Source of the DNA: Ornithinimicrobium cerasi
GTDB lineage: Bacteria > Actinomycetota > Actinomycetes > Actinomycetales > Dermatophilaceae
Direction of reading: 5' to 3'
Length of the DNA: 64,000 bases
Assembly (NCBI RefSeq): GCF_003702705.1
Contig: NZ_QZMN01000007.1
Coordinates: forward strand, 168,068 to 232,067
Of the stretch, positions 6,013-57,903 are shown one piece after another. The notes beneath the pieces were generated by a model. It was not told the origin of the DNA. It saw only the letters and a list, made by a program, of their open reading frames with translations, and searched no databases. The first letter of the stretch is position 1. Each line of letters opens with the position of its first letter. Position numbers and translations under genes: made by a program.

Positions 6013-7251
6013 GTGCCGCACCACCCCGAGGACGACTGGACCCGCCCGATGCCGCGCACGCAGCGCTCCGGACGGGACGCCGCGGGTGCGCGCCGACGGG
6101 ACGACTGGCGCGAGCGTGACGAGCTGGAGGAGACCCGGCCGATCCCCCGGCAGGAGCGCCCCGGTCGGGACGAGCGGTACGTCGGGCAGTACGACACCCC
6201 CGACGCCCCGGGCTACGACGAGCCGGGTCACCGTGAGCCGGGTCTGCGCGAGCCGCGGCCCCGCACCGCTCCCCCGCGCCGTCCCTCCCGCCGCCGGCGC
6301 TACGGGTTCCGCCGCCTCCTGGCGCTGGTGCTCCTGCTGCTCGTGGGCTACGTCGTCTCGCTCGCCGTGGTGGCCGCCCTCATCTGGGGCAGCGTCACGA
6401 CCATCGACGCGACCCCCGACGTGGCCGACCGTCCGGGCGGCGGGGCCGGTGAGAACTACCTCCTCGTCGGGACCGACAGCCGGGAGCAGCTCAGCGACGA
6501 GGAGCGCTCGGAGTTCGGCACCGGCGCGACCGAGGGATCCCGCGCGGACACCGTCATGCTGCTCCACGTGCCCACCCTCGGCGAGCCGACCCTGGTCAGC
6601 CTGCCGAGGGACTCCTACGTCGAGATCCGGGACCACGGCCTCGACAAGCTCAACGCGGCGTACTCGATCGGCGGTGCGGAGCTGCTCGTCGACACCGTGG
6701 AGCAGTCCACCGGGCTGCGGCTCAGCGGCTACCTCGAGATCGGTTTCGGCGGCTTCGTCGGCGTGGTCGACGAGGTGGGCGGCGTCACCATGTGCCTCGA
6801 CGCCCCGGTGGTCGACGAGAAGGCGCACATCGACCTGCCGGCCGGGTGCCAGGAGCTCGCCGGTCCCGAGGCGCTGGGCTACGTGCGGATGCGCTACAGC
6901 GACATGCGCGGTGACATCGGCCGGGTCGAGCGACAGCGCGAGTTCCTGGCGGCCCTGGTGCAGGAGATGGCCAGCCCCGCCACCGTCCTCAACCCGTTCC
7001 GGCTGCACCAGGTGGGCACCGCCACCGGGCGGGCTCTCGCCGTCGGCGAGGACACGTCCCCCGTCGAGGCCGCCCGGATGGGCCTGGCCATGCGCTCGAT
7101 CGCCAACGGCGCAGGGATCTCGATCACCGTCCCGGTCGCCGATCCCGACCACCCCACCGCCGTCGGCAGCACCGTCCTGTGGAACGAGCAGCGGGCGGCC
7201 GAGCTGTTCGAGGCACTGCGCACGGGCGGCACCGTGAGCGTCCAGCCCTGA
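6013..7251 (+). CDS. LytR-CpsA-Psr (LCP) family glycopolymer ligase
   Basis: The protein (412 aa from this start) has a charged Arg/Pro-rich cytoplasmic N-terminus of ~95 residues, one transmembrane helix (LLALVLLLLVGYVVSLAVVA) and an extracellular LCP domain. That domain shows YLLVGTDSR, GSRADTVMLLHV, LVSLPRDSYVEI and LNAAYSIGG, with the Arg/Asp residues that bind the pyrophosphate of lipid-linked glycopolymer. LCP proteins attach secondary wall polymers to peptidoglycan. The start is set by the TAGGGT promoter. The adjacent divergent glycosyltransferase and the downstream membrane kinase fit a cell-envelope neighbourhood. Confidence 0.87.
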   Translation: MPHHPEDDWTRPMPRTQRSGRDAAGARRRDDWRERDELEETRPIPRQERPGRDERYVGQYDTPDAPGYDEPGHREPGLREPRPRTAPPRRPSRRRRYGFRRLLALVLLLLVGYVVSLAVVAALIWGSVTTIDATPDVADRPGGGAGENYLLVGTDSREQLSDEERSEFGTGATEGSRADTVMLLHVPTLGEPTLVSLPRDSYVEIRDHGLDKLNAAYSIGGAELLVDTVEQSTGLRLSGYLEIGFGGFVGVVDEVGGVTMCLDAPVVDEKAHIDLPAGCQELAGPEALGYVRMRYSDMRGDIGRVERQREFLAALVQEMASPATVLNPFRLHQVGTATGRALAVGEDTSPVEAARMGLAMRSIANGAGISITVPVADPDHPTAVGSTVLWNEQRAAELFEALRTGGTVSVQP

Positions 7252-50151: not shown

Positions 50152-51423
50152 TCAGCCGTCCCAGCCCACGAGCGCGACCCCGCGCCTCACCAGGAGGCGG
50201 GCCAGCGCGAGGGCCTCACCGGGGTCGTCCGCCAGGTCCCCCACCTGCACCACCTCGGTGTCGAGGAGGCGACGCAGGCCGGGGAGGGAGGCGGACGGCA
50301 TACCGAACCGGCCCGCGCGGGAGGAGACGACCACGTCCTCACCGGTGCCGGGCAGGACCTCGAGCATCAGGTGCGCCCGCAGGTGCAACGTGTCGTCCGG
50401 GTCGAGGACGTCCGCGGCGGCCAGCTGGGCGAGGGGGCGGACCGGCGCTGCGCGCTGGGCGGACCGCGCCCGCCCCCGCATCACCCGCACCACCTGGTCG
50501 GCCGGCAGGTCGCGGACCGCACGCAGCAGCGCCTCCCGCGCCACCTCGACGTCGCCCTCCAGGGCGTCGACGCGGGCGAGGTCGAGCCCGAGCGGGAGGC
50601 TGCGGCGGACCTCCGGGTCCTCGGCGAGCGCCGCCCTGGCGCGCTCCAGCAGGGCCTCGCCCAGGTGCGAGCGGGTCCACTGGTGGACGCCGATCGTCAG
50701 GTGCACGCTGACGCCCCCCAGCGCGCGGGCGGCGTGGATCCAGCCGCGCGGCAGGTAGAGGCAGTCCCCGGGGCGCAGCGTGGTCTCCAGGGCCGGGTCC
50801 TGCCGGGCACGCTCCTCGACGGCTGCCCGGCGCTCCGTCCACGGTTCGTCCCGCAGGGGGTCGACGTGCACCGGGTCCCGCAGCGTCCAGCGCTTCTCGC
50901 CGTGGACCTGCAGCACGAAGACGTCGTGGACGTCGTAGTGGTCGGCGAAACCCTGGTTCTGCGGCGGCGTGACGTAGGCGTTGACCTGGACCGGGTGACC
51001 CAGGTCGGCGGCCAGGGCGGCGCTGAGCTCCCGGACGGGCGCCCAGGTGCGGTGCAGGCCCTGCAGGACGATCGTGGCCCCGTCGGCGAACAGCTGCAGC
51101 AGCCGGTCGTCGCTGACCTGGTCGGCGACCGCGGCACCGATGCCACCGCCGCTGGTGAAGGCCCGGTCCGGCAGGGTCGAGCCGTCCCGCGCGACCCGCA
51201 GGAACGGGGTGCGCAGCCCGCGGTCGGCGACGAGCTCGTCGACCGCGTCGAGGCCGAAGAGGTCCGAGAAGTCGTCCCCGCCCCTGGCCCCCGCGCTCGC
51301 CAGGTGCAGCCGGCTTCCCCAGTACTCCGTCGCGAACGTCTGGGGGTCGAGGTCACCCAGGAGCCGGGCGAGGGCCGCGCGGTCGTGCGCGGCCCTCGTC
51401 GGCAGGTGGTGCGTCTGGGTCAC
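50152..51423 (-). CDS. JmjC/cupin-4 domain Fe(II)/2-oxoglutarate oxygenase
   Basis: A 423-aa protein of the ribosomal-oxygenase-like (ROXA) cupin_4 family. The iron triad HxD...H is seen as His162 and Asp164 in DHYDVHDVFVLQVHGEKRW and His230 in LYLPRGWIHAA. A helical and winged-helix-like C-terminus completes the usual ~400-aa architecture. Known relatives hydroxylate arginine or histidine in ribosomal proteins. The GTG start overlaps the stop of the DGGA-repeat peptide gene (GTGA), so this enzyme is made with that peptide, its most plausible substrate. The hydroxylation target is inference. Confidence 0.85.
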   Translation of the reverse strand: MTQTHHLPTRAAHDRAALARLLGDLDPQTFATEYWGSRLHLASAGARGGDDFSDLFGLDAVDELVADRGLRTPFLRVARDGSTLPDRAFTSGGGIGAAVADQVSDDRLLQLFADGATIVLQGLHRTWAPVRELSAALAADLGHPVQVNAYVTPPQNQGFADHYDVHDVFVLQVHGEKRWTLRDPVHVDPLRDEPWTERRAAVEERARQDPALETTLRPGDCLYLPRGWIHAARALGGVSVHLTIGVHQWTRSHLGEALLERARAALAEDPEVRRSLPLGLDLARVDALEGDVEVAREALLRAVRDLPADQVVRVMRGRARSAQRAAPVRPLAQLAAADVLDPDDTLHLRAHLMLEVLPGTGEDVVVSSRAGRFGMPSASLPGLRRLLDTEVVQVGDLADDPGEALALARLLVRRGVALVGWDG

Positions 51424-51803
51424 AGGGACGGACCGTCGGCAGCCCCGTCCGCGCCACCGTCCGCGCCACCGTCAGCGCCACCGTCCGCGCCACCGTCCAT
51501 CGGACCGTGCCCACCGGAGCCGTCCGCGCCACCGTCCGCGCCGCCGTCAGCACCACCGTCCGCGCCGCCGTCAGCACCACCGTCCGCGCCGCCGTCGGCC
51601 CCACCGTCCGCGCCGCCGTCAGCACCGCCATCGGCCCCACCGTCTGCGCCACCGTCGTGGCCGGCGCCGCCGTCGAGCGCCGCACCGCCCTCGGGGGCCG
51701 TGCTCATGCTGTCGAACGCCTCGGACACGTTCTCGCTGCCCAGCGAGGAGTCCTCGTAGCCGGTGCTCTCGCCGCCGGTGCTGTCGTCGCCGTGCGTGCT
51801 CAT
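51420..51803 (-). CDS. DGGA-repeat peptide, putative substrate of the JmjC oxygenase
   Basis: A 127-aa acidic peptide. The N-terminal ~40 residues are complex (TGGESTGYEDSSLGSENVSE) and look like a leader or recognition region. The rest is DGGA tetrapeptide repeats (residues ~44-95 and ~103-124) interrupted once by GSGGHGPM. There is no signal peptide, Cys or membrane helix. GAGGAGG stands 8 nt before the ATG at 51803. The stop overlaps the oxygenase start. Residue composition (Asp, Gly, Ala) leaves Asp as the main modifiable residue. Related RiPP-type precursors often sit next to their enzymes, but no other RiPP enzyme is present. Confidence 0.7.
   Translation of the reverse strand: MSTHGDDSTGGESTGYEDSSLGSENVSEAFDSMSTAPEGGAALDGGAGHDGGADGGADGGADGGADGGADGGADGGADGGADGGADGGADGGADGSGGHGPMDGGADGGADGGADGGADGAADGPSL
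51440..51675. repeat. Short tandem DNA repeats coding for DGGA
   Basis: Reading the plus strand, 12-bp-phased units such as CCACCGTCCGCG and CACCGTCAGCGC recur with synonymous and near-synonymous variation. Interruption at ~51500-51525 corresponds to the GSGGHGPM segment. Such repeats can expand or contract by slippage. Confidence 0.7.
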
Positions 51804-51867
51804 CCACGTCCTCCTCGTTCGTGACCCCGCCGGGATGCGCGGTCTGCGTGACACTCTCGCGACAAGC

Positions 51868-54516
51868 TCACGGGTGCGCAACCGGAGGGCGCCGACCGTC
51901 CTCAGGCCCGTCGGGACGGACGGACCACGGCGACCCCCACGCCACGAAGGCGCCGGCCAGGGGCAGGTCGCACGACGACGCGGCGAGGGCCAGCGCCTCG
52001 TCGACCTCGTGCCCGTCGGCGAGCAGCCGGTGGTAGCGGGGCATCAGGGCCGCGGCCGTGCTGTCCGGCACCCGGCAGGGTGAGGCGACGACGCTGGGCA
52101 CGCCGAGCGCGAGCAGCCCGCTGGCCAGCCCCAGGCTCGCGTCGCCGCCACGCGCGTGGGCGCGTCCGGCCTCGCAGGCCGAGACGACGACGTGCGAGGC
52201 GGTGCGCTCGACCCGCTCGAGGTCGGCGAGGAACGCCGGGCCGTCCTCGAGCCACAGCGAGGAGAAGAGAGGGCTGTCCGAGCGGTGGCTCCCGTGGGCC
52301 GCCACGTGGGTGAGGTCCCCCCGGGACAGGCTGCGGGCGAGGTCCTCGGCGCGGGCGAGAGCGGTCGGCGGGAGTGTCCCCCAGACGGCACCCACCGCGG
52401 CGCACTCCTCGCGTGCGCCGGGCAGACCGGGCCCGGCGATGACCTGGGCCCGCGGCGCGCTGACGGACCGGGTGCCGCGGACCCAGGTGCCCAGGCTGGG
52501 CGCCACGGTGGTGGGCAGACCGGCCCGCGACGGCAGCACCCCCCACGCCAGGCCGGCCAGGGCGGGGACCGGCGCCACGACCAGCCGTCCGTCAACGCCG
52601 AGCGGCCGCAGGAGGAGGTCGTCCACGGCACGGGCCGACGCCCGCAGGGCGGCGTCGACAGCGCTCACCATGGGCCCGGTCCCGACCCTCGCGCGCGCCT
52701 CGAGGTCGGCCGCCAGCCGCTGGACCGCCTCGCGGACGGGCGCGGCCGGGCCGAGGTCCACCCACCGCGTCCGGCGGCGCAGGACCACCACCGCCGCGAG
52801 GTGGGACCGGTGCTCGACGAGGCCGACCCCGGTGGCGGCCCTGGCGGCGAGCGCCTCCCGCACCCGCGCCAGCGGCACCGGCGCCCGCTCGGTCCCGCTC
52901 CCCCCAGCCGCCGCCCACGAGGCGGCCGCGACCTGCCGCTCGAGCGAGCGGAGCCGCTCCCGCAACCGTCCGGCCTGCTGGGGGTCCTCGCGGGCCTGCT
53001 GGCGCAGGTGCCGGAGGTTGGTGACCCGACGGGCGAGCTCGGGGTCGGCCGGCGGACGGACCTCGGGCACCCGCCACGCCACCTCCCGCCAGCGCTCGAC
53101 GGCCCGCAGGCGGGCGGCCGGGTTCTCTCCTGCGAGCTCCAGGTCGAGCCTGGAGAGCCCGGTCGCGTGCGTGAGCGTGACCGAGCGCAGCTCGAGGCTC
53201 GCGCTGGCGCTCAGCGCGGCGGAGAGGTCGCGCAGGGCCGCGCGCACGTGCCTCCGGGCCGCGGCGACGTCCCCCCGGGACCGGTCGGCTGCGGCGAGCA
53301 CCGCCCGGGTGCGCATCCGCGTGCTCAGGGAACCGACCCGGGTGAGCTCGGCGGACGCGTCGAGCAGGCCGACCGCCTCGGTATGCCGTCCCTGCGCCGT
53401 CAGCGCCTCCGCCGCGAGCAGCCGCGCCAGGTCGGCGGCGACGTTGTCACCGTCCCGGTCGAACTCCTCGGCCAGCCGGACGCACCGGGAGGCGACCCGG
53501 CCCGGTGCCGACCCGGTGCGCAGGCGCGCGGTCAGCTCGACGAGGCTGGCCCGGCGGCGCAGGCCGGGGGCACCTCCGCCGGCCAGGGTCTGGGCGGCCC
53601 GGCCCGCCGTGGCGACCGCGGCCTCGGGCTCCCCGAGCACGAGCTCCCCCAGGGCCTGGTCGTTGAGGCAGTGACCCGCCTCCAGCCGCTGCCCGTCCTC
53701 GAGCGCCTCCGCCGTGGCCCGCTCGAGCAGCTCGACGGCCTCGGTGACCAGGCCGGCCTCGAGGAGCACCAGAGCCCGGCCGTGCCAGGCGACGGCGCGC
53801 GAGACGTCGGTCGGCAGCCGGTCCGCCTCGAGCATCAGCGACAGCGCCTTCGGCAGGTCGCCCTCCAGCGCGGCCGCGCTGCCCAGGTTGTGCAGGGCCA
53901 TGAACTCCTGGGCCGGCAGTCCGTGCTCGGCGGCCAGCTGCGCCGCGGCGGCGAACTCCGCGGCGGCGCCGCCGGCGTCGGGGACCTCCATCCGCAGCGC
54001 GCCGCTGGAGAGGAGGAGCCCGAACTTCTCCCGGGGCCCCAGCCGGTCACGGCCGGCGGCGGCCAGGTCGAGCTCGGCGAGCGCGGTGCGGAGCCGCCCG
54101 GCCCGGCCGTGGAGGGTCGCGAGCTGGGCGTGGCACAGGGCGACGAGCGCCGGACGGACCCGCTCGGCCGTCCGTCCGGCGCGGGCGAGCGCCTGGTGCG
54201 CCAGCCGGACCGCCGGGGCCGGTCCCCCCCCGTCGACGACCGCCGTGCTCAGGGACAGGAGCACCCGGACCCGGGCCTCGAGGGCGTCGGCGGGTCCGCC
54301 GCCGACCGAGGGGAAGTGCTCGTCGACGCGGAGCCCGACCACCTCGGGACGATCCCTCACCCCGGCGTGGTCGAGCTCGGAGAGTGCCTGACGGAGCAAG
54401 CGCTCCCCCAGCGCCGGCCGTCCCGCAGAGTTGGCCTGGCGGCCCCGTTCGAACAGCTCCGTGACACCCGGGGGCACGGGCGCCCCGACCTGCGACGTCC
54501 TGGTCCCCGAGGTCAC
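51868..54516 (-). CDS. TPR-CHAT protein (caspase-like protease)
   Basis: About 882 aa from the GTG at 54516. Residues ~1-560 form TPR-like helical repeats rich in Ala/Leu/Arg (for example EFMALHNLGSAAALEGDLPKALSLMLEADRL). The C-terminal ~290 residues are a CHAT domain with the catalytic dyad His ~741 in THVAAHGSH and Cys ~781 in VVSACEAGRAHARGGD. GLASGLLALGVPSVVAS completes the fold. CHAT domains are caspase-like cysteine proteases, and TPRs usually sense a partner. The start is uncertain: no clear Shine-Dalgarno sequence, and the frame is open to 54588. It is 8 nt after the 160-residue gene, so it belongs to the sigma operon. Confidence 0.85.
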   Translation of the reverse strand: MTSGTRTSQVGAPVPPGVTELFERGRQANSAGRPALGERLLRQALSELDHAGVRDRPEVVGLRVDEHFPSVGGGPADALEARVRVLLSLSTAVVDGGGPAPAVRLAHQALARAGRTAERVRPALVALCHAQLATLHGRAGRLRTALAELDLAAAGRDRLGPREKFGLLLSSGALRMEVPDAGGAAAEFAAAAQLAAEHGLPAQEFMALHNLGSAAALEGDLPKALSLMLEADRLPTDVSRAVAWHGRALVLLEAGLVTEAVELLERATAEALEDGQRLEAGHCLNDQALGELVLGEPEAAVATAGRAAQTLAGGGAPGLRRRASLVELTARLRTGSAPGRVASRCVRLAEEFDRDGDNVAADLARLLAAEALTAQGRHTEAVGLLDASAELTRVGSLSTRMRTRAVLAAADRSRGDVAAARRHVRAALRDLSAALSASASLELRSVTLTHATGLSRLDLELAGENPAARLRAVERWREVAWRVPEVRPPADPELARRVTNLRHLRQQAREDPQQAGRLRERLRSLERQVAAASWAAAGGSGTERAPVPLARVREALAARAATGVGLVEHRSHLAAVVVLRRRTRWVDLGPAAPVREAVQRLAADLEARARVGTGPMVSAVDAALRASARAVDDLLLRPLGVDGRLVVAPVPALAGLAWGVLPSRAGLPTTVAPSLGTWVRGTRSVSAPRAQVIAGPGLPGAREECAAVGAVWGTLPPTALARAEDLARSLSRGDLTHVAAHGSHRSDSPLFSSLWLEDGPAFLADLERVERTASHVVVSACEAGRAHARGGDASLGLASGLLALGVPSVVASPCRVPDSTAAALMPRYHRLLADGHEVDEALALAASSCDLPLAGAFVAWGSPWSVRPDGPEDGRRPPVAHP

Positions 54517-54523
54517 GTCGCGG

Positions 54524-55006
54524 TCAGAGGGTGAACTGCGGGGTGATGACCGGCCGGCCTCCCGGAGGGTGGACGGTGAGTCGGGCACCGCCCCTCGGGA
54601 GGTCGCTGAGCACGAACCGCCCGTCCTCGTCCGCCTCGACGGTGCGGGTCCCCCCGCCGTCCAGGTCGAGACCGACGCTGGCGGCCCCGCAGGTCAGCCA
54701 ACCGTCGAGGCGGGCGCGGTCACGGCCCTCCGGGGTCACCGTGACCATGATGCTCACGCTCTCGGTGCTGAACGTGACCGTGGTCGCCTCGGCAGGGTCG
54801 TCGGCGAAGCCCCGCGACACCAGCTCGGGCTGCGAGGTCAGCTCGGCGACCTCGGCCTGCAGCGCCTGGACCGTGAGCGCGAAGGAGATGCGCTCGGTCA
54901 GGTCGGCGGGGCACGGGTCGAGCCGGGCGACGACCTCGCGCAGCTCGCGCAGGATCGTCGCGTCCGTGCCGTCGAACGGCTCCAGCCAGGTCTCGGTACC
55001 GGTCAT
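54524..55006 (-). CDS. 160-residue protein with carboxypeptidase-regulatory-like C-terminus, candidate sigma partner
   Basis: The N-terminal half is helical (ILRELREVVARLDPCPADLTERISFALTVQALQAEVAELTS) and the C-terminal half looks like a beta-sandwich of the carboxypeptidase-regulatory type (GTRTVEADEDGRFVLSDLPRGGARLTVHPPGGRPVITPQ). There is no membrane helix. The ATG at 55006 overlaps the sigma-factor stop (ATGA). Genes directly coupled to a sigma factor are often anti-sigma factors, and this one is immediately followed by a TPR-CHAT protease. A cleavable cytoplasmic anti-sigma role is inference. It is unlike standard zinc anti-sigma proteins (no HxxxCxxC). Confidence 0.65.
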   Translation of the reverse strand: MTGTETWLEPFDGTDATILRELREVVARLDPCPADLTERISFALTVQALQAEVAELTSQPELVSRGFADDPAEATTVTFSTESVSIMVTVTPEGRDRARLDGWLTCGAASVGLDLDGGGTRTVEADEDGRFVLSDLPRGGARLTVHPPGGRPVITPQFTL

Positions 55007-55614
55007 GCGTCCACCCACCTCGGGTCGGCGACGAGTGCTCGTCGCAGCTTGTCAAGACAGCGCCCGCGGGTCGGGCCGATGCTGCCGCGGGGCATGCCCA
55101 GCGCGGCGGACACCTGGTCGTAGTCCGGCCGGTCGACGAACGCCACGACCCGCAGGAGCGCCCGGCAGCGCTCCGGCAGCTCCCCGACCGCCGCCCAGAG
55201 CGCGCCCTGGCGCTCGGTGAGGATGGCCAGGGTCTCCGGCCCGTCCTCCACGTCGCCCGGGTCGACGGTGCCCGTCTCGTCGTAGGTGTTGCGGCGGGCC
55301 AGCTTGCAGTTGCGCCACGACTCGCGCTTCACGGCGACGACGAGCCAGCCGAGGACGGCCCGGGGGTCCCTGATGTCCTCGAGGTGGTCGACGAGCCGCA
55401 GCCAGGTCTCCTGCACCACGTCCTCCGCGGCGTGCTGCGCGCAGCCGTGGGCGCGGGCGACCTGCCACAGCAGCGGGGTGAGCAGCTCGACGAGCTCGCC
55501 GATCGCCTCGTGCCGGCCGTCGACGTAGGCCGCGAACACCTCTCCCGCCTGGGAGGCCAGGGAGGGCGGGCTGGTGCCGGACCCACCCCCGGCCCTCGGC
55601 GGCTCGGTCACCAT
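55003..55614 (-). CDS. RNA polymerase sigma-70 family (ECF-like) sigma factor
   Basis: A 203-aa sigma factor with region 2 (LLWQVARAHGCAQHAAEDVVQETWLRLVDHLEDIRDPRAVLGWLV) and region 4 (LPERCRALLRVVAFVDRPDYDQVSAALGMPRGSIGPTRGRCLDKLR). The ATG at 55614 overlaps the protease stop in TGATG, with AGGAGGTG about 8 nt upstream inside the protease gene. The frame is open to 55647, but the overlapping ATG has the ribosome site. It probably directs transcription of this cassette or a stress regulon. Confidence 0.88.
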   Translation of the reverse strand: MVTEPPRAGGGSGTSPPSLASQAGEVFAAYVDGRHEAIGELVELLTPLLWQVARAHGCAQHAAEDVVQETWLRLVDHLEDIRDPRAVLGWLVVAVKRESWRNCKLARRNTYDETGTVDPGDVEDGPETLAILTERQGALWAAVGELPERCRALLRVVAFVDRPDYDQVSAALGMPRGSIGPTRGRCLDKLRRALVADPRWVDA

Positions 55615-57191
55615 CACCGCCACACCTCCTGGTCCAGGGCCGCCCACGCGCGCTCGAGCATGACCTTCGGGTCGACCGAGGCGCCGCCCTCCACCGTCGC
55701 CTCCGCGAGCCGGTCGGCCACCCGTCCGGCGACGTCCGGCGCGGCGAAGCTGGTCCCGCTCCAGACCGCGAAGCCGCGGCGCATGTCGTCGCGGTCCGTG
55801 CGGGCCCGCAGCGCACCGCCGTCGCCCGGGGTCGAGCGCGAGGGGTTGGCCGAGGCCTGGAAGCTCGTCGGCAGCGTGCTCACCACGTTGACACCCGGAG
55901 CGTGGGTGGTCACCCAGGGACCGGCGTTGCTGAACAGCGCCACCGTCTCACCGTCGGGGTTGGTGGCGCCGACGGCCACGAGCGGCACCACCGAGCGATC
56001 CTCGGGAGGCGTCGCGCCGGCCGCCCACCCGGCGGGGTAGAGCGGCACGCGTGTCGCGTCGTTGCCGGCCGCGGTCACGACGAGCACGCCCCGCTCGCCG
56101 AGGAGGCGCAGCAGGTCACGCAACGGGTGCGCCTCGACGACCCCGTCCTGGTGGTAGTAGCCCATCGAGATGTTCAGCACGTCCAGGACGAAGCCGCGGG
56201 ACAGGTCCTTCGGCTCGAACCCGGTGAACCCGGCGTCCTGCGCCCGGGCGTGCAGCACCCACAGAGCGGTGAGCGTGCGGTGCACGTCGCCCTCGGCGAC
56301 GGCTCCGGAGGAGTCCAGGACCGGCAGCCCCACCAGCCGGGCGTCCGAGGCGGCCTGGCGCACGATCCCGGCGATGAAGGTGCCGTGTCCGGACAGCCGG
56401 TCCAGCACCCCGGTCAGGTCGTTGCGGACGCCCTTGTCCTCGGGGTCGGGGTCGAGCCCTCCGGGCGGTCCCACGGGGATGCCGTCCAGGTCACGGAGCA
56501 CCGCCGTCAGGTCCCCGGTCAGCCACGGGTGCGCGCCGATCCCGGTGTCGGGCACGACGACGACGGGCGAGCGTTCGGGTGCCCGGGTCTCACCCCCGAG
56601 GTCCGCGAGGCCCAGCGTCACCGGCGTCCGGGCGCCGACCTCGCCGTCGTCCTGGCCCTGGCCACCCCAGTAGTAGCCGCCGCCCTGACCTCCCCAGTAG
56701 TAGCCGCCGCCCTGGCCGCCCCAGTAGTAACCGCCGCCGGCGGCCAGCATGAGGTGCTCCAGGTCGGCGTCGACCGGGCCCTCGGCCCGCGCGGCGGCGA
56801 GCAGCTCCCACGCGTCGAGCGGTGCGGCGGCGCTGGTGGGCACGATGCGGACACGGGTCTGGTAGACCCGGTCGACCTCCTCGGCGCGCTCGTCGCCGAG
56901 CCACTCCTCGAAGGCGAGGTCGGTCTCCTCGACGGTGAGCTCCACGGCATACCCGGCGTTCTCCGCCGTGCCGCGCAGGCGCTCCAGCGTGCGCCCGGCG
57001 CTCCGGCCCGGCAGCCCCCGGAGAAGCAGGGTGGAGGTCAGGTATGTCGTCGTGCCCGGCGACCGCGGGCCCCCCTCCTCCTCGGCGGCGGGGTCGCGCG
57101 GCGCGGTGACCGGGTCGAGGACGCGCGCACCGTGGCGCCGGAGCACCTCCGGCGGGAGATCCAGCACCAGCATGTCGTCGTCGTCAGCCAT
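55614..57191 (-). CDS. Cytoplasmic subtilisin-like (S8) serine protease with GYYWGGQ repeats
   Basis: A 525-aa protein. The catalytic triad is complete: Asp215 in VVVVPDTGIG, His269 in LSGHGTFIAGIV and Ser480 in WSGTSFAAPDVAG, with the oxyanion Asn in AAGND (~376). There is no signal peptide; residues 1-150 form a distinct domain. Residues 152-178 are three 9-residue repeats containing GYYWGGQ, joining that domain to the protease. The acidic N-terminus is MADDDD. It is the first gene of the six-gene block, and its end encodes the ribosome site of the sigma gene. Confidence 0.87.
   Translation of the reverse strand: MADDDDMLVLDLPPEVLRRHGARVLDPVTAPRDPAAEEEGGPRSPGTTTYLTSTLLLRGLPGRSAGRTLERLRGTAENAGYAVELTVEETDLAFEEWLGDERAEEVDRVYQTRVRIVPTSAAAPLDAWELLAAARAEGPVDADLEHLMLAAGGGYYWGGQGGGYYWGGQGGGYYWGGQGQDDGEVGARTPVTLGLADLGGETRAPERSPVVVVPDTGIGAHPWLTGDLTAVLRDLDGIPVGPPGGLDPDPEDKGVRNDLTGVLDRLSGHGTFIAGIVRQAASDARLVGLPVLDSSGAVAEGDVHRTLTALWVLHARAQDAGFTGFEPKDLSRGFVLDVLNISMGYYHQDGVVEAHPLRDLLRLLGERGVLVVTAAGNDATRVPLYPAGWAAGATPPEDRSVVPLVAVGATNPDGETVALFSNAGPWVTTHAPGVNVVSTLPTSFQASANPSRSTPGDGGALRARTDRDDMRRGFAVWSGTSFAAPDVAGRVADRLAEATVEGGASVDPKVMLERAWAALDQEVWR
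56655..56740. repeat. Three 27-bp tandem repeats coding GYYWGGQGG
   Basis: Units of 27 bp with AGTAGTAGCCGCCGCC as the common part recur in phase with the reading frame. Two units are nearly identical; the third has TAA for TAG on the plus strand (synonymous on the coding strand). Confidence 0.75.
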
Positions 57192-57465
57192 CTCGGCCCT
57201 TTCGTCGCACCGCCGCCCTGCAGGGAAGCGTAGTGGGGTTCACCTGTACAGAGGGGGGTGCGGAACCTCAGATACGGACGGACGGACGGACGTCGTCGAA
57301 AGTTTTTTCCCGGAGGCGGTATCTGGCGGGGCGGCCGGCGCTCTGACCGGGTGCAGGGGCCGCACCGGTCAGGCGCTGTGCTGCAGGGAGTACAGCGAGG
57401 ACCGGGTGCAGGCACCGGGCGCGCGCCGTGCAGGGGGTGCACGGCGCGCGTCCGGTCCCGTGGGC
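57192..57465. promoter_or_regulatory. 274-bp gap: S8 operon upstream region and ndk terminator
   Basis: Close to the S8 start, minus-strand TACGCT (~57229-57234) is a possible -10 box. An inverted repeat CAGATAC (57269-57275) and GTATCTG (57319-57325) brackets a tandem GGAC tract and a run of six T. These are the most AT-rich bases of the neighbourhood and may bind the operon's regulator. Near ndk, GCGCGCCGTGCA and TGCACGGCGCGC form a 13-bp stem around GGGGG (57420-57450), a probable ndk terminator. Confidence 0.5.
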
Positions 57466-57903
57466 TCAGCCGAGCGTCGGGAACCAGATCGCGGTCTCGC
57501 GGGCCGCCGACTCGGGGGAGTCCGAGCCGTGCACGATGTTCTGCTGCACCGCCAGCCCCCAGTCCCGCCCGAGGTCGCCCCGGATCGTGCCGGGCGCCGC
57601 CGCTGTCGGGTCGGTGGCCCCGGCGAGCGACCGGAAGCCGGCGATGCACCCGTGGCCCTCGATGAGGGCGGCGGTCACGGGACCGGACGACATGAACTCC
57701 AGGAGGGGCTCGTAGAACGGCTTGCCCTCGTGCTCGGCGTAGTGCGTGCCGAGCTGCTCGCGGCTGGGCGTGAGGACGGCGAGCGCCACCAGGGTGTAGC
57801 CCTTGGCCTCGATGCGCCGCAGCACCTCCCCGGTGAGCCCGCGGCGGTAGCCGTCCGGCTTGACGAGGACGAGCGAGCGTTCGGTCTGCGTGGTGTCGGT
57901 CAC
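57466..57903 (-). CDS. ndk: Nucleoside diphosphate kinase
   Basis: A 145-aa enzyme that exchanges gamma-phosphates between NTPs and NDPs. SLVLVKPDGYRRGLTGEVLRRIEAKGY is the N-terminal signature and the phospho-histidine lies in NIVHGSDSPESA (~residue 124). Typical length is 136-150 aa. TAGGCT is 7 nt before the GTG start. In many actinobacteria ndk follows folC and DUF4233 and lies near mreB; here other genes intervene on both sides. Confidence 0.97.
   Translation of the reverse strand: MTDTTQTERSLVLVKPDGYRRGLTGEVLRRIEAKGYTLVALAVLTPSREQLGTHYAEHEGKPFYEPLLEFMSSGPVTAALIEGHGCIAGFRSLAGATDPTAAAPGTIRGDLGRDWGLAVQQNIVHGSDSPESAARETAIWFPTLG

Follow-up and report, generated by a model that had tools for sequence, protein, structure and literature searches.

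Organization of the locus

We analyzed a window of 64,000 nucleotides (nt) from Ornithinimicrobium cerasi (contig NZ_QZMN01000007.1, positions 168,068 to 232,067), in which genes for an S8 protease, a sigma factor, a small protein coupled to the sigma factor, a TPR-CHAT protease, a repeat peptide and a JmjC oxygenase lie at 50152..57191. A first-pass annotation, made from the letters of the sequence, had described these genes as one block that might act as a stress or defence switch. All six open reading frames (ORFs) were confirmed on the minus strand in the order given there, and their coordinates agree with the TGATG, ATGA and GTGA junctions or small gaps that it reported.

The first gene (55614..57191, minus strand) encodes an intracellular-type S8 (subtilase) protease (Pfam Peptidase_S8, 2.7e-15) with an N-terminal region of about 150 residues and a repeat linker, and it is joined to the sigma gene by a TGATG overlap. 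The sigma gene (55003..55614, minus strand) encodes an ECF-type sigma-70 factor, as indicated by NCBIfam sigma70-ECF (60.8 bits, cut-off 42.9) and Sigma70_r2 (2.1e-9), which bears out the earlier assignment to the sigma-70 family; region 4 matched Pfam at 0.2 only. The third gene (54524..55006, minus strand), which overlaps the sigma gene by ATGA, encodes a 160-residue protein with a family of homologues. The C-terminal half of this protein shows a weak likeness to CarboxypepD_reg (2.5e-5, below the Pfam cut-off), from which we took the name carb.

The fourth gene (51868..54516, minus strand) encodes a TPR-CHAT cysteine protease (Pfam CHAT, 2.6e-22). Its likely start codon is the GTG at 54516, 7 nt past the carb gene; the longest frame begins at 54588. 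The TPR units were individually weak in Pfam (2.3e-4), and the CHAT family profile matched TPR structures at 1e-26. Both catalytic sites that the first-pass annotation had read as complete were invariant among homologues: the S8 triad Asp215/His269/Ser481 across 29 aligned sequences and the CHAT dyad His742/Cys782 across 30 (alignment numbering in both cases).

The S8, sigma, carb and TPR-CHAT genes form a conserved module

The S8, sigma, carb and TPR-CHAT genes constitute a conserved actinobacterial module. The annotation had proposed that these four families would be found together in other genomes, and we examined 248 genomes of the order, from 86 genera, with profile cut-offs of E ≤ 1e-3 for carb and 1e-20 each for S8 and TPR-CHAT. 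Carb was matched in 46 genomes (23 of the 86 genera), S8 in 48 and TPR-CHAT in 56. CHAT was present in all 46 carb genomes versus 10 of the 202 genomes without carb (Fisher p = 1.2e-40), and S8 in 40 of the 46 versus 8 of the 202 (p = 1.1e-31); both p values ignore shared descent. Further, at least eight of the 10 CHAT-positive, carb-negative genomes possessed a diverged carb near CHAT: nine of these genomes were fetched, eight of which had such a gene, and in the ninth the contig stops at CHAT. Across the phylum, 54 of 396 genomes had a carb match, many of the lowest-scoring ones being doubtful. The core idea of the annotation thus survived the co-occurrence test, and the module is real and conserved.

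We then fetched 84 loci, picked through carb, CHAT or S8 matches and related by descent, and called their genes with a custom caller. All four genes were found together in 59 of them. The sigma gene lay immediately 5' of carb in 72 of 79 cases and overlapped it in 64, most commonly by 4 bases, so the direct coupling first noticed in the window extends to the family. Two gene orders were observed, namely S8-sigma-carb-CHAT, as in the window, and sigma-carb-S8-CHAT. Eight carb loci lacked both S8 and CHAT; CHAT was located elsewhere in seven of these eight genomes (G018 and G035, plus five of six genomes in a further search). CHAT is retained in the genome when the genes of the module are split.

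Some loci were arranged in other ways. L106 and L108 each carried two adjacent S8-CHAT sets, additional carb genes and a single sigma gene shared by the sets; the two sets bear different repeat units (PFTSGG and HP[ML]YDG), which are conserved between both genomes. At L127, a 48-residue ORF (6747-6893) with a sigma motif upstream lies just before CHAT, and sigma-carb is elsewhere in that genome.

A conserved arginine in the linker of carb

An AlphaFold2 model of carb built from five sequences (mean predicted local distance difference test score, pLDDT, 75.9) comprised two helices within residues 12-56, then a stretch with pLDDT < 50, then a beta-sandwich of higher confidence. The predicted disordered linker contains a conserved motif, [AG]-V-R-[GSA]. 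Among 79 distinct carb proteins, the Arg was found in 76, Val before it in 59, and Gly, Ser or Ala after it in 73. Two of the three exceptions, the window and the closest named relative found, Ornithinimicrobium tianjinense (locus L001), have V-S-R-[GS] two alignment places off, and the third is a truncated copy. An alignment-free count found xR[GSATV] in 69 of 70 linkers; the other 9 of the 79 proteins lacked the anchor pattern and were left out. The Arg is the most conserved position within the linker only: over the whole protein it is level with Thr155 and Pro33 and below Gly102, Gly129, Phe131 and Phe79.

CHAT relatives (clan CD) often cut after Arg or Lys. The linker Arg is a candidate cleavage site, and its conservation fits a partner protein that is cleaved. 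The form of the motif in the window is V-S-R-G-F (54806..54820, minus strand), where the candidate cut would fall after Arg65.

A carb profile of 36 sequences searched against all Protein Data Bank (PDB) chains had six matches at E ≤ 1 (best 0.024), none of which was named Csx30, and a fold search with carb found nothing at E ≤ 0.001 (best 5t7a, 4.1e-3).

Perfect repeats in the serine protease

The S8 protease of the window contains three perfect copies of GGGYYWGGQ at the junction of the N-terminal region and the catalytic domain (56658..56738, minus strand), with synonymous codon differences between them. The unit was considered as a tag shared with other proteins of the same genome and rejected as such, since only the three S8 copies were recovered at up to 2 DNA mismatches. 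Most S8 proteases of the module have a perfect tandem repeat at the same place, usually of six residues, and the unit varies by lineage (GYGDGV, GWGQGV, PYTQPF, PYWDPV, HPFTQS, NPFIET, NPYGRT, PFWGGH and others). A GGR[QTS]PV pattern following the S8 repeats missed 10 of 44 (the window included) and took a second site in others.

Repeats were scored with a unit of 4-12 residues and at least 2.9 perfect copies; the S8 of the window was not among the 44 scored. By this measure, 31 of 44 S8 and 3 of 6 trypsin-type S1 proteases had repeats, versus 8 of 868 other proteins. Elsewhere, they were found in 2 of 24 more distant S8, 1 of 79 CHAT, none of 74 sigma and none of 79 carb proteins. The repeat-bearing S1 proteases are divergent and belong to three S8-less loci of one family (L040, L041 and L043), and their repeats (TQPF or PFTE) are close to S8 units of that family (PYTQPF and HPFTQS). 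At L050, L052 and L105, which possess S8 and S1, the array is in S8 and none is in S1. Within 24 arrays, adjacent copies differed by synonymous codons at 230 of 591 positions; these arrays had been selected as perfect at the protein level, and the lack of amino-acid differences follows from that selection. It is unusual for a cytoplasmic protease to carry short repeats whose copies are kept the same by selection even as the unit changes from lineage to lineage, and this implies a partner that co-evolves with them.

Two readings of the arrays were considered. They may be a multicopy peptide: identical short units set free by the proteases would bind the TPR superhelix of TPR-CHAT and switch it on, or the uncut array would dock there. 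The identity of the copies despite synonymous change, the lineage-specific units, the concentration in S8 and S1, and the confinement of the S1 arrays to S8-less loci point this way, but the synonymous ratio is inflated by the choice of perfect arrays, and the array is not essential, given that 13 of the 44 S8 (including those of Myceligenerans, L002-L004) and 22 of the 24 distant S8 (matches weaker than 1e-60) are free of repeats; we consider this reading quite unlikely. Alternatively, the array could merely separate an inhibitory N-terminal domain from the catalytic domain, or offer sites for autoprocessing there, as its position in S8 would allow. The S1 array, however, is near the C-terminus, and the copies stay identical while their codons change, so that we regard a spacer role as decidedly unlikely.

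A promoter-like motif upstream of the module

A promoter-like motif, TGTATCAGG...CTCCT, precedes operons of the module and operons of the alternative S1 protease. Among 84 regions upstream of S8-first or sigma-first operons, the core GTATC-17-CTCC was found at 26 loci, versus at most 7 in each of five shuffles. With a weight matrix built from these same regions (threshold 12 bits), matches were obtained upstream of 28 of 40 S8-first, 31 of 44 sigma-first, 6 of 6 S1, 1 of 2 carb-first and 0 of 22 CHAT-first operons, in total 66 of 114 regions versus 4 of 1140 shuffles. The window has such a motif (GTATC-N17-CTCT, 57250..57275, minus strand) upstream of the S8-sigma-carb-CHAT operon; its score of 17.6 bits was equalled by 1 of the 1140 shuffled upstream regions.

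A second, divergent GTATC-N17-CTCT (57319..57344, plus strand) was recovered by a pattern match over the genome of the window. This genome has seven motif matches, two of them at the module, versus three for the reversed pattern, and thus the single match at 57319..57344 could be due to chance. A large sigma regulon in this genome was rejected on the same counts. By inspection, the genes that follow the matches away from the module include one like a transcriptional regulator and one like a decarboxylase. In 43 genomes with the module, a strict pattern gave 41 matches, 24 of which were at the module, versus 10 for the reversed control, and a looser pattern in 35 other genomes gave 58 versus 25. 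The simplest reading of these counts is that sigma serves mainly its own module. G288 had nine matches versus one in the control. Its carb loci are separate from CHAT, and there the motif stands in front of an S8 gene (L203) that adjoins CHAT.

Other genes preceded by the motif were an S8 gene (L140), a CHAT protein (L186), a patatin (L206) and a DUF6345 gene (L204), all as single matches that may be due to chance; the same applies to a caspase-fold gene 16 nt downstream of the motif at L144. A single case (L198 and L222, the latter in G033) has the motif about 48 nt before an AAA gene; this gene heads a cluster of the contractile-injection type that includes Pvc16_N, tail sheath and gp19 tail tube genes.

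A candidate small RNA

The segment 57349..57465 (plus strand), downstream of the divergent motif, runs toward the 3' end of the convergent gene ndk and is predicted to fold into a strongly structured RNA that contains runs of the AGGG type. Its minimum free energy was -85.4 (z = -6.9), and none of 200 shuffles was as good; it holds just two G-runs. We also compared the 150 nt following 13 orphan copies of the motif, which have no gene after them, with dinucleotide shuffles. The folding z values were -0.3 to -5.2 (9 of the 13 at or below -2.9), and the 13 segments contained 11 G-rich hairpin loops versus a shuffle mean of 3.9 and a maximum of 9. A set of 20 segments, chosen by reading and not blindly (13 of 25 orphans plus 7 of 20 stretches; 12 of the 25 orphans were dropped, most as preceding a gene), had 99 runs of at least 4 G versus 9 of C, and 186 control strand-segments averaged 1.45. 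These features mark a candidate small RNA, which may be transcribed from the motif. Possible partners of a G-run RNA of this kind are C-rich loops, by pairing, or a protein.

Searches against Rfam yielded two microRNA models only, far below gathering scores, for 56900-57700 of the window, and three tRNAs only at the gathering threshold for 15 other loci. When six candidate RNAs were co-folded with 6C RNA and with the 16S tail, there was no excess over shuffles, loop-loop contacts being invisible to this method, and a literature search on the RNA, at the level of listings, returned no match. Noncoding strings of ACGGGGGA-like units after a sigma motif, far from the module, were observed in g87 genomes (L217 and L218), with similar noncoding stretches in L216, L219 and L220 of the same group.

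Relation to known systems

The neighbourhood of the module resembles that described for ECF54. The available text of PMC8999054, which cites Casas-Pastor 2021 and Huang 2015, places carboxypeptidase, subtilase and CHAT domains next to ECF54 sigma factors and proposes proteolytic control. Judged by this description of the neighbourhood, the likeness consists of an ECF-type sigma factor with carboxypeptidase-type, subtilase and CHAT neighbours in actinobacteria; here, sigma70-ECF was above cut-off and all four domains were found, the carboxypeptidase-type one of the window below the Pfam cut-off. The module fits the ECF54 description, and the association of the four genes is therefore not new (PMC8999054, available text). 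That portion of the account makes no mention of the linker Arg, the promoter, the repeats, the S1 alternative, unlinked CHAT or an RNA (PMC8999054). The repeats, linker Arg, promoter, S1 alternative and RNA were likewise not found in our literature searches, although the primary ECF54 papers or their supplements may contain some of them.

A mechanistic precedent exists in type III-E CRISPR systems, in which Csx29 cleaves Csx30 and frees CASP-sigma (PMC10028731, available text). The likeness is the presence together of a TPR-CHAT protease with a His/Cys dyad, a small protein and an ECF-type sigma factor, and a proposed release by cleavage (PMC10028731). The module differs from CASP in that carb is not detectably Csx30 and in that an additional serine protease is present. 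Further, the CHAT profile matched 8rot (3.3e-10) better than entries such as 7x8a (1.1e-4), which we take to be a craspase entry. A PADLOC scan limited to the six proteins, leaving aside other parts of the window and any CRISPR arrays, detected no Cas protein or Cas7-11. Since none of the six is of Cas type, the logic of CHAT, sigma and a coupled partner stands in this block without a CRISPR part, as the first-pass annotation had stated.

Other systems share some of these components. EACC2/caspase conflict systems combine a protease, an ECF sigma factor and a TPR protein in one neighbourhood, together with EACC2 and DUF1822 components (PMC8195603, available text), and further protease-sigma or protease-rich conflict systems appear in PMC7159879, as in PMC8195603, to the extent that these texts were available. 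With IetAS and other defence proteases the module shares an S8 protease that matched the PADLOC subtilase model PDLC03014 (7.9e-7), a match that reflects the general subtilase fold; the six proteins include no IetA-type AAA gene.

A proposed cleavage switch

We favor, tentatively and with a little less than even confidence, a reading in which CHAT cuts carb, sigma is freed and the module is amplified. Carb, made in step with sigma, would hold it or tether it to a protease. When the TPR part reads a trigger, CHAT would become active and cut the linker of carb after the conserved Arg, parting the helices from the beta-sandwich. From the TGTATCAGG...CTCCT promoter, the freed sigma would then drive the operon that encodes it; the serine protease (S8, replaced by S1 in some genera) and the structured G-run RNA may be part of its output. 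The proteolytic response, probably one to infection or damage, would thereby amplify itself, with the serine protease as a putative executioner and its repeated motif as a possible recognition element for a partner. Computation supports the conserved module, the coupling of sigma and carb, the persistence of CHAT in split arrangements, the promoter motif, the repeats and the linker Arg; what we infer is that sigma binds carb, that CHAT and not S8 does the cutting, the nature of the trigger and of the output, and the transcription of the RNA. If this reading is right, the module follows the logic of the Csx29-Csx30-sigma switch without CRISPR, is found across actinobacteria and matches a sigma group, ECF54, whose control is an open question.

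Several observations weigh against the cleavage switch. Conservation of the Arg could instead reflect binding. Carb has no detectable kin among solved structures, and hence nothing marks it as an anti-sigma factor. One of the six genomes with a CHAT-less carb locus in the further search has no CHAT match. At L106 and L108, one sigma gene and extra carb genes beside S8-CHAT suggest that carb may serve the proteases as well. The AlphaFold2 model of S8 had a mean pLDDT of only 32.8. Finally, 48 of the 114 upstream regions had no match to the matrix, which was trained on that same set, and the 17 of 41 strict matches outside the module hardly exceed the control total of 10.

The opposite arrangement, in which the proteases keep sigma off by degrading it, carb is an adaptor to S8 or CHAT and sigma comes on when proteolysis stops, seems to us somewhat unlikely. 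Degradation of sigma is the form of control proposed in print for ECF54 (PMC8999054, available text), and carb beside sigma-less S8-CHAT sets at L106 and L108 fits an adaptor. The conserved Arg in a flexible linker, however, belongs to carb, and autoregulation of the proteases with sigma would then be negative feedback, which is possible.

A caspase-like cascade would extend the cleavage switch: TPR-CHAT would read the hypervariable tandem motif of its own S8 or S1 protease as a lineage-specific ligand and cut carb at V-R-[GS], and the released sigma would make the module and a G-run RNA acting as a sponge. In such a cascade, the motif could pass to S1 where that protease takes the place of S8, so that the recognized element would be the peptide and not the enzyme. 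We judge the cascade as a whole unlikely.

The repeat peptide, the JmjC oxygenase and neighbouring genes

The last two genes of the block are the repeat peptide (51420..51803, minus strand; no Pfam match), which begins 64 nt after CHAT and contains DGGA repeats, and the JmjC oxygenase (50152..51423, minus strand; Pfam JmjC_2, 8.6e-28), joined to it by a GTGA overlap. Homologues of JmjC (E ≤ 1e-30) were found in 46 of the 248 genomes, 26 of which are without the module CHAT. Both genes were present in 20 genomes, and JmjC adjoined CHAT in the window's genome alone; the named locus L001 of O. tianjinense shows the same adjacency. A DGGA-type peptide gene, scored as at least three DGG[AS]/D[SH]GA within a single upstream reading frame, lay just 5' of JmjC in 28 of the 30 best-matching loci (none in L163 and L167; 18 further JmjC matches were outside this sample). 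The peptide and JmjC are thus a pair of their own, and treatment of the six genes as one unit, as first annotated, was rejected. What stands of the proposed stress- or defence-type switch is the co-occurring four-gene core; JmjC and the repeat peptide are not members. That all six nevertheless act as one system, with JmjC modifying the repeat peptide or S8 within the switch, would fit their adjacency on one strand in the window and at L001, and is extremely improbable in light of the distribution of JmjC.

The pair is widespread (L148-L177 and 50152-51803 of the window), and its peptide has a short leader and DGGA-type repeats, often in GPADGGAxGxPGxHDGGADGG blocks. From these features, the DGGA peptide and the JmjC oxygenase look like a substrate-enzyme pair. 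A literature search on the JmjC peptide, again at the level of listings, gave no match.

The genes flanking the block were read as ndk and Suc_Fer-like. Identity to O. tianjinense over the aligned parts was 92% for ndk, 79% for sigma, 71% for carb, 66% for S8, 64% for CHAT and 71% for JmjC. The window's own genome also encodes a second large CHAT protein of about 1240 residues (G000:C37:9643-10380, L183), which looks unrelated to that of the module.

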